NCBI GenBank assembly: GCA_003695825.1
Contig: RFHK01000132.1
Span: 1 to 34,214 of the forward strand
From: Gammaproteobacteria bacterium
Lineage (GTDB): Bacteria > Pseudomonadota > Gammaproteobacteria > Thiohalobacterales > Thiohalobacteraceae
Length of the DNA stretch: 34,214 nt
Direction: 5' to 3'
Positions 25-1,692 of the stretch are shown here, piece after piece. Every line of letters starts with the position of its first letter. Within the stretch, counting starts at the first letter, position 1. The notes under the pieces are model-generated. The model saw nothing but the letters and a program-made list of their open reading frames with translations. It did no database searches and had not been told where the DNA came from. The translations under genes were made by a program, and so were the position numbers.

Positions 25-1182
<1,158 letters not shown>

Positions 1183-1284
1183 CGGGGATCTGCTCCTTGC
1201 TTCCTGCGGCGGACCGCAACGAAAAAACCCGCTGGCCAAAGCACAAGCGGGTTTCCGTGGATCCATGCCTGTTTCGCTTTAGCC
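1183..1284 (-). promoter_or_regulatory. metK 5' leader with intrinsic terminator: candidate attenuator or riboswitch
   Basis: Between the predicted promoter and the metK ribosome site lies about 100 nt of leader. It contains a hairpin followed by a U-run (1222-1254). The first nine transcribed bases, GGCUAAAGC (1276-1284), are complementary, with one G-U pair, to GCUUUGGCC (1234-1242), which lies inside the loop of that terminator. Such a pair could form an alternative stem or a pseudoknot, so transcription into metK could be conditional. I cannot match it to a known SAM or SAH riboswitch class. The transcription start is predicted, not shown. Confidence 0.5.
1222..1254 (-). terminator. Intrinsic terminator in the metK leader
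   Basis: On the minus strand AAACCCGCU and AGCGGGUUU form a 9-bp stem around a 12-nt loop, followed by further U residues (six U in all). It lies about 40 nt upstream of the metK start codon and downstream of the likely promoter, so it would act inside the metK transcript rather than end an upstream gene. Confidence 0.75.
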
Positions 1285-1289
1285 GGATT

Positions 1290-1317
1290 TCTATAGCGCC
1301 CGCAATCTGAAATCAAA
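1290..1317 (-). promoter_or_regulatory. Predicted sigma-70 promoter of metK
   Basis: On the minus strand a TATAGA -10 (1290-1295) is preceded by TTGATT (1311-1316, 15-bp spacing) or TTTGAT (1312-1317, 16-bp spacing). Transcription would begin near 1283-1284 and give a leader of about 100 nt. Confidence 0.5.
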
Positions 1318-1359
1318 TCGGCGCTTCCCGGCGGATTCTAGGGGAGGGCACCGGGCAAG

Positions 1360-1692
1360 TCAAAGCAGGGGGGTGAGGCTGGCCGAGGCGTCCCGGGGGT
1401 CGATACGCAGCGTGAACCAGGCACAGCCGGCCTCGAGCACCGGCTCGTCGCCGCAGCTGCAGCACTGGACCTGGACGTCGAAGAAGACGGCGATGTGCGC
1501 CGTCGGGGCCGGGGCCTCGGGGTCGGGGACCCTGACGTCGAAGCCGAGGTCTTCGGCGAGCGCCCGGTCGCCGGCGGAGACGAAGCGCTCCAGTGCGAAG
1601 GCGCGCGCGGGCAGGCCGGCCAGTTCCCGCCGGAGGGTGTCGCGGAACGCCGGGGTGCGCCAGGCGGCGAGGCTCTCGGGCAGATGGATCAT
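1360..1692 (-). CDS. Conserved-looking small protein of unknown function
   Basis: A 110-residue protein that I do not recognise. It begins MIHLPESLAAW, has an amphipathic helical first half and a C-terminal half that looks like beta strands (AHIAVFFDVQVQ, CAWFTLRIDP). Three cysteines in a CCSC cluster near residue 80 and another about ten residues later could bind metal, but this is only a possibility. No signal peptide or membrane segment is visible. The gene lies upstream of metK on the same strand, with 177 bp between them holding the metK promoter and leader, so the two are probably not one operon. No clear ribosome site precedes the ATG; a TAGAAT sequence lies just upstream and could be a -10 for a nearly leaderless message. 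Confidence 0.6.
   Translation of the reverse strand: MIHLPESLAAWRTPAFRDTLRRELAGLPARAFALERFVSAGDRALAEDLGFDVRVPDPEAPAPTAHIAVFFDVQVQCCSCGDEPVLEAGCAWFTLRIDPRDASASLTPLL

Follow-up and report, generated by a model that had tools for sequence, protein, structure and literature searches.

The metK leader of a gammaproteobacterium of the family Thiohalobacteraceae is very probably a SAM-II riboswitch with predicted control of transcription

According to the relevant passages of the papers cited here, the SAM-II riboswitch (Rfam RF00521, SAM_alpha) is sporadic in gamma-proteobacteria and is associated with terminators in alpha- and beta-proteobacteria (PMC2258182), and sequences from Bordetella and Coxiella were already listed in 2005 (Corbino 2005, PMC1273637). 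The P2a helix of typical SAM-II has 5 bp in 60% of cases (PMC6061858), and tandem SAM-II is known from 44 examples (PMC9481103). The 2014 survey, in its sections on these regulators, placed SAM_alpha in Rhizobiales and Rhodobacterales only and gave beta-proteobacterial metK no known methionine regulator (PMC4239095). The same work presented as new, with no ligand named in its description, a metXZ element of beta-proteobacteria, which comprises two pseudoknotted pairings and a terminator upstream of metX or metZ (Leyn 2014, PMC4239095). For the Burkholderia sRNA Bp2_287, RT-PCR was reported and a location upstream of methionine genes was given (PMC3521395). In the open-licence PMC literature, no paper was found that links SAM-II to the metXZ element, to Bp2_287 or to metK of gamma-proteobacteria.

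The window analyzed here was the whole stretch of 34,214 nucleotides of contig RFHK01000132.1, in which the metK gene, encoding an S-adenosylmethionine (SAM) synthetase of 385 aa, occupies positions 25..1182 of the minus strand (ATG at 1182, stop codon at 25–27). The identity of the product was established by a profile match to TIGR01034 (626.5 bits against a cut-off of 309), and solved SAM synthetases aligned along its full length, with 648.6 bits for the structure 1fug, presumably the E. coli SAM synthetase. On the minus strand, the order of elements was promoter, H-type pseudoknot aptamer (1325–1272), terminator (1254–1222) and metK. The promoter (1335..1363) was of the sigma-70 type, with TTGACT (1363–1358) and TAGAAT (1340–1335) separated by 17 nt and 10 of 12 consensus matches; it was the sole site found within 800–1700 (shuffle mean 0.0), and the aptamers of relatives had a similar site at the same upstream position. 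Since this was the only promoter-like site and was similarly placed in relatives, transcription should start near 1328, as predicted from the sequence. The Shine–Dalgarno sequence of metK, AAGGAG, read from the sequence at 1193..1198 of the minus strand, was located past the terminator and outside the aptamer. The initial annotation of this DNA had proposed a promoter, a leader and a terminator upstream of metK, all of which were retained, but the leader it called unassigned matches SAM-II (RF00521).

This match covered the whole model (1–79) at 1258..1334 of the minus strand and scored 25.8 bits, with an E-value of 2.8 × 10−4 in a 164-nt search with relaxed thresholds and 8.5 × 10−4 in a whole-genome search. 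Helix P1 was formed by AGCGCC (1320..1325) and GGCGCU (1295..1300), all on the minus strand, with SAM-II spacing and six of six pairs standard in the RF00521 alignment, and its 3′ strand was also identified by covariation. The conserved SAM-II L1 strand, with the loop GAUUUGA (1313..1319), was located by the RF00521 alignment and the aligned aptamer columns. Helix P2a combined UUUC (1309..1312) with GAAA (1272..1275), the latter identified by covariation, and the P2b strand UUGC (1302..1305) was paired with GCUAA (1283–1279) inside the pseudoknot 3′ strand GGCUAAAGC (1276..1284), which is alternatively the 5′ strand of the antiterminator. The joining bases of the minus strand were AGA between UUUC and UUGC, a single G between UUGC and GGCGCU, and AUAGAAAUCC between GGCGCU (1300–1295) and GGCUAAAGC. 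The motifs GAUUU, UUGC and GCUAAA, which we take to be the SAM-binding core nucleotides of the published SAM-II structure, were all present in the window, and the core columns 12–16, 30–33 and 60–65 were invariant or nearly so in the aligned aptamers. The range originally marked, 1183–1295, excludes the 5′ half of the aptamer; because it begins inside the aptamer, the terminator and its partner strand had been seen and no known class recognized. Addition of the missing 5′ 40 bases gives a fit to SAM-II with its core and both pseudoknot helices, so that the statement of a leader unlike any familiar riboswitch is not supported, whereas the accompanying guess of SAM-type control is.

Covariation was evaluated in an alignment of 11 aptamers of the family (A1), which omits two RF00521 matches of one genome (G001: L010 and L012, E = 0.01–0.05) consisting of sequence without the motif; a covariance model, R1, was built from A1, the window being partly in its training set. 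With the pseudoknot included, 92.7% of the A1 cells were standard pairs versus 82.6% in shuffled alignments, and both-side changes were found in six pairs (three of six in P1 and three of four in P2a). The covariation score of A1 was 0.307 versus 0.094 in shuffles, none of 500 shuffles reached 0.307, and slid versions gave a maximum of 0.101. A larger set comprised 109 aptamers, the best-scoring R1 matches from 100 loci searched, in which 97.0% of P1, 70.6% of P2a and 100% of P2b cells were paired, conservation in this set being inflated by relatedness and by selection with R1. In this set, P1 had both-side changes in three pairs, and P2b (UUGC with GC-U-AA) was invariant and paired in all 107 distinct sequences. 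The covariation score of the 109 aptamers was above all shuffles; the count of pairs with both-side changes (6) was matched by 68 of 500 shuffles. A lack of covariation in relatives, which the initial annotation had raised against its own proposal, did not hold for the aptamer, in which P1 and P2a covary.

Within the family, RF00521 matches at E up to 0.1 were found in 6 of 11 genomes, none of them over the cut-off. In the class, this model matched 118 of 369 genomes at E up to 10−3 and 30 of 369 over the cut-off versus 178 of 369 for R1 at E up to 10−3 (the two sets were drawn in the same way and held the same genomes where listed), which constitutes an annotation gap; none of 14 control genomes was matched by RF00521. 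Two metK leaders of another family, both also found with R1, exceeded the RF00521 cut-off (36.7 bits in G112 and 38.8 bits in G228). Downstream of the 109 aptamers, 71 genes for a Cys/Met-metabolism PLP enzyme (metZ type), 15 metK and 4 metF genes were found, and the other ORFs included five for MoxR-like ATPases, one metN-type ABC gene and some singletons. ORFs were assigned as the longest frame, with wrong-frame artefacts at L110, L115_513, L193_301 and L216_301; the gene downstream of L110 is metK, and at L206 no ORF reached 90 aa. The Pfam domains found on representatives were Cys_Met_Meta_PP, MTHFR, ABC transporter with NIL domain (metN type), LysR and AAA_5. The 15 aptamers upstream of metK (14 and L110) were distributed over 14 loci and six families. 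Among 80 named metK relatives (L013–L092), R1 matched a single one at E < 0.3, the Herbaspirillum-labelled L090, and the element is accordingly no general feature upstream of metK. Separately, SAH riboswitch RF01057 was observed over its cut-off at 8 of 10 metK loci scanned (L111, L125, L127, L130, L136, L169, L221 and L090), where SAM-II-metK neighbours an SAH switch; the window stops at metK, so such a neighbourhood would lie outside its bounds.

At curated Rfam cut-offs, no match was found anywhere in the window, and default annotation misses the element because 25.8 bits is under the RF00521 gathering score of 36 bits, which is a curation threshold and not a structural feature. This score, the failure of the first reading to place the leader and a P2a shorter than in typical SAM-II (PMC6061858) could be taken to indicate a new class of leader RNA with another ligand, such as SAH or methionine. 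Such a class is, however, very unlikely: every SAM-II core nucleotide is retained, R1 recovers, on the same strand, 30 of the 37 RF00521 over-cut-off places among the matches listed, and the targets metZ, metK and metF are the usual SAM feedback set. In addition, SAM-I, SAM-V, SAM-SAH and SAH riboswitches were absent among the nine Rfam matches to the leader at E up to 10; the covariance-model search suggested in the initial annotation thus gave a match to SAM-II under its cut-off and none to these four. By its anatomy, covariation and gene context, the leader is very probably SAM-II, a predicted SAM binder with predicted SAM-dependent termination. We infer SAM as the ligand, the direction of control and actual termination, and regard it as highly probable that the leader is a SAM-II riboswitch by which transcription of metK is switched off.

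The intrinsic terminator hairpin with its U-tract (1222..1254, minus strand) consisted of the arms AAACCCGCU (1254–1246) and AGCGGGUUU (1233–1225), the loop UGUGCUUUGGCC (1245–1234) and the U-tract at 1227–1222, and folded with −17.9 kcal/mol versus −9.8 in shuffles (z = −3.2; 2 of 200 shuffles equally good). A pattern scanner detected no terminators; it admits loops of 3–8 nt, and the loop here has 12. The antiterminator 3′ strand GCUUUGGCC (1234..1242, minus strand), located in the terminator loop by pairing and folding, pairs with the nine bases of GGCUAAAGC (1284–1276), and the pairing is extended by AAAUCC (1290–1285) with GGGUUU (1230–1225). The duplex reached −18.9 kcal/mol versus a shuffle mean of −10.9 (z = −3.5), equalled by none of 100 shuffles. 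The originally reported pairing of the 5′ end with nine terminator-loop bases is real as a pairing, but GGCUAAAGC is not the 5′ end because the promoter lies at 1363–1335 and the start near 1328; the proposed switch design, a terminator with an alternative pairing before metK, is supported. In equilibrium folding of the window leader, the terminator probability was 0.05 in the free RNA and 0.998 with the aptamer strands blocked, and a two-state switch is well supported by these models. At low SAM, free AAAUCCGGCUAAAGC would pair with two segments of the terminator, GCUUUGGCC and GGGUUU, and the polymerase would continue into metK. At high SAM, P1 and the P2 pseudoknot would fold around SAM and sequester GCUAAAGC, the terminator would then form, and transcription would end near 1222, which overall would amount to end-product feedback on SAM synthesis. 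The direction, with metK switched off at high SAM, is suggested by analogy with SAM-II biology as presented in passages of PMC1273637 and PMC9373788.

Among the 109 aptamers, a terminator was found within 160 nt past the aptamer in 82 (strict finder). The pairing of the pseudoknot strand with the terminator region had a mean z of −2.15 in these leaders, with z < −2 in 46 of 82, and in 52 of 82 no more than 5 of 100 shuffles were as good; the antiterminators of the G112 and G228 metK leaders were no better than shuffles (z = +0.66 and +0.91). For the antiterminator, the check for covariation in relatives therefore gave a divided result, with complementarity conserved in many leaders but not in all. 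The free state favoured the antiterminator (terminator probability < 0.5, equilibrium) in 32 of 82 leaders and in 2 of 13 upstream of metK, and the blocked-aptamer (“bound”) terminator probability above 0.5 in all 82 follows from the imposed constraint. In the other leaders, according to these models, the antiterminator would have to form first, before the 3′ arm of the terminator is made. That most metK leaders do not switch in equilibrium folding, together with a window score under that of many relatives' aptamers, might point to a constitutive leader, i.e., a fixed terminator or remnant hairpin beside a decayed aptamer, but this is exceedingly improbable, since no core position is lost in the window and its alternative pairing is, with that of G002, the strongest among the metK leaders. 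Nor is attenuation by a leader peptide, with ribosome stalling on a short ORF selecting between terminator and antiterminator, a credible substitute for the SAM-II switch. An ATG at 1266 opens a 413-aa ORF that continues into metK in the same frame, and a weak match to Rfam Trp_leader scored 17.2 bits against a cut-off of 41 (E = 0.26); this ATG, however, is missing in the same-genus relative L110 and has neither a Shine–Dalgarno sequence nor a run of Met codons, and the conserved portion of the leader is the structured aptamer.

Second copies of tandem arrangements had no terminator within 160 nt in nine of nine cases (strict finder) and instead had an inverted repeat over the Shine–Dalgarno sequence in examples read by eye; the genome of the window contained a single copy and no further ones. 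As a separate observation, tandem SAM-II was located upstream of MoxR-like AAA ATPase genes at L247 (G128:C37, 456–5104), L115, L143 and L165. The ATPase gene of L247 was followed by one for a DUF2201_N/VWA_CoxE protein and one for a divergent SAM synthetase with 28% identity to the window MetK and 140 bits with TIGR01034 (cut-off 309), which retained HPDK and GGGAWSGKD; this odd MoxR-VWA-MetK-like operon, with predicted double SAM control, occurs at least partly in the genus of the window (G002). Tandem SAM-II was also found upstream of ORFs without a Pfam match (L150, L216, L204 and L116) and directly upstream of a second metK paralogue with 59% identity to the window MetK (L113, G007:C174), and at L249 a protein further downstream resembled the PADLOC candidate PDC-S11 (38 bits).

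The plus strand of the leader was matched by RF02424 (“Burkholderia sRNA Bp2_287”) with 27.8 bits (E = 7.5 × 10−5), which falls under the cut-off of 70 bits. At E up to 10−3, RF02424 matches were found in 21 of 185 genomes of the class, with the R1 aptamer on the opposite strand at 20 of 20 loci examined. Of 60 genomes from the family to which the L090 genome belongs, 18 were matched by RF02424, and R1 at E < 0.1 was found at 15 of 20 loci, each time on the opposite strand; the other five (L232, L238, L240, L242 and L244) had no R1 match at E up to 0.1. Combined, RF02424 was antisense to the aptamer at 35 of 40 loci tested, and the loci with antisense RF02424 were observed within L107, L147–L165 and L227–L246. 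A SAM-II core was found by pattern at 14 of 20 RF02424 loci of the L090 family, upstream of genes for metX and metZ/metY-type proteins, these names being assigned by reading the sequences. On this sequence evidence, the strand described by RF02424 appears to be antisense to SAM-II-type leaders. The plus-strand match would also suit a functional RNA of the Bp2_287 family on that strand, but there is hardly any likelihood of this, given the opposite SAM-II-type aptamers at these loci, downstream genes of the metX or metZ type that share the strand of the aptamer, and a U-tract and promoter that suit the minus strand only. The metXZ element, as far as its published description goes, is most likely the same SAM-II element, the identity resting on that description and not on its figure or alignment.

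It is possible, although doubtful, that the beta/gamma leaders constitute a SAM-II subclass apart. Its marks would be a short P2a, a near-fixed CAG(C/A) linker preceding UUGC and the use of the pseudoknot strand as antiterminator, so that a single strand would be contested by ligand binding and antitermination while the RNA is being transcribed; the subclass might also have a distinct kinetic or ligand preference. If so, many Gammaproteobacteria (as delimited by GTDB) would have in this subclass a main SAM sensor, up to now described piecemeal as the metXZ element and RF02424. Inclusion of beta/gamma sequences in RF00521 and a re-oriented RF02424 would give metZ, metX, metK and metF a regulator in many genomes, and a leader in which one strand serves both the ligand pseudoknot and the antiterminator offers a compact test system.

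Compared with the known systems, as the cited passages describe them, the element of the window would share SAM sensing, predicted in its case, upstream of metK or met genes with SAM-SAH, SAM-V and SAM-I (PMC4239095), whereas none of the three models matched its leader at E up to 10. It covers the same DNA as Bp2_287, likewise upstream of methionine genes (PMC3521395), which, however, models the strand opposite the promoter, aptamer and U-tract. With the metXZ element it has in common pseudoknotted pairings and a terminator, and the RF02424 loci of the L090 family carry the SAM-II core before metX and metZ-type genes. Tandem SAM-II and SAM-II/SAM-V systems (PMC9481103) have counterparts in relatives of the window, with a terminator first and a ribosome-site hairpin second, whereas the window itself has a single copy. 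The likeness to SAM-II (Corbino 2005, PMC1273637) extends to the P1 hairpin, the P2 pseudoknot, the GAUUU, UUGC and GCUAAA core, the promoter just before P1, the terminator between P2 and the ORF, and the methionine-pathway targets. Unlike typical SAM-II, the element of the window has metK as its target in a GTDB class holding gamma- and beta-proteobacteria, a P2a of 3–4 pairs, a score under the Rfam cut-off, and an antiterminator that is the pseudoknot strand itself.
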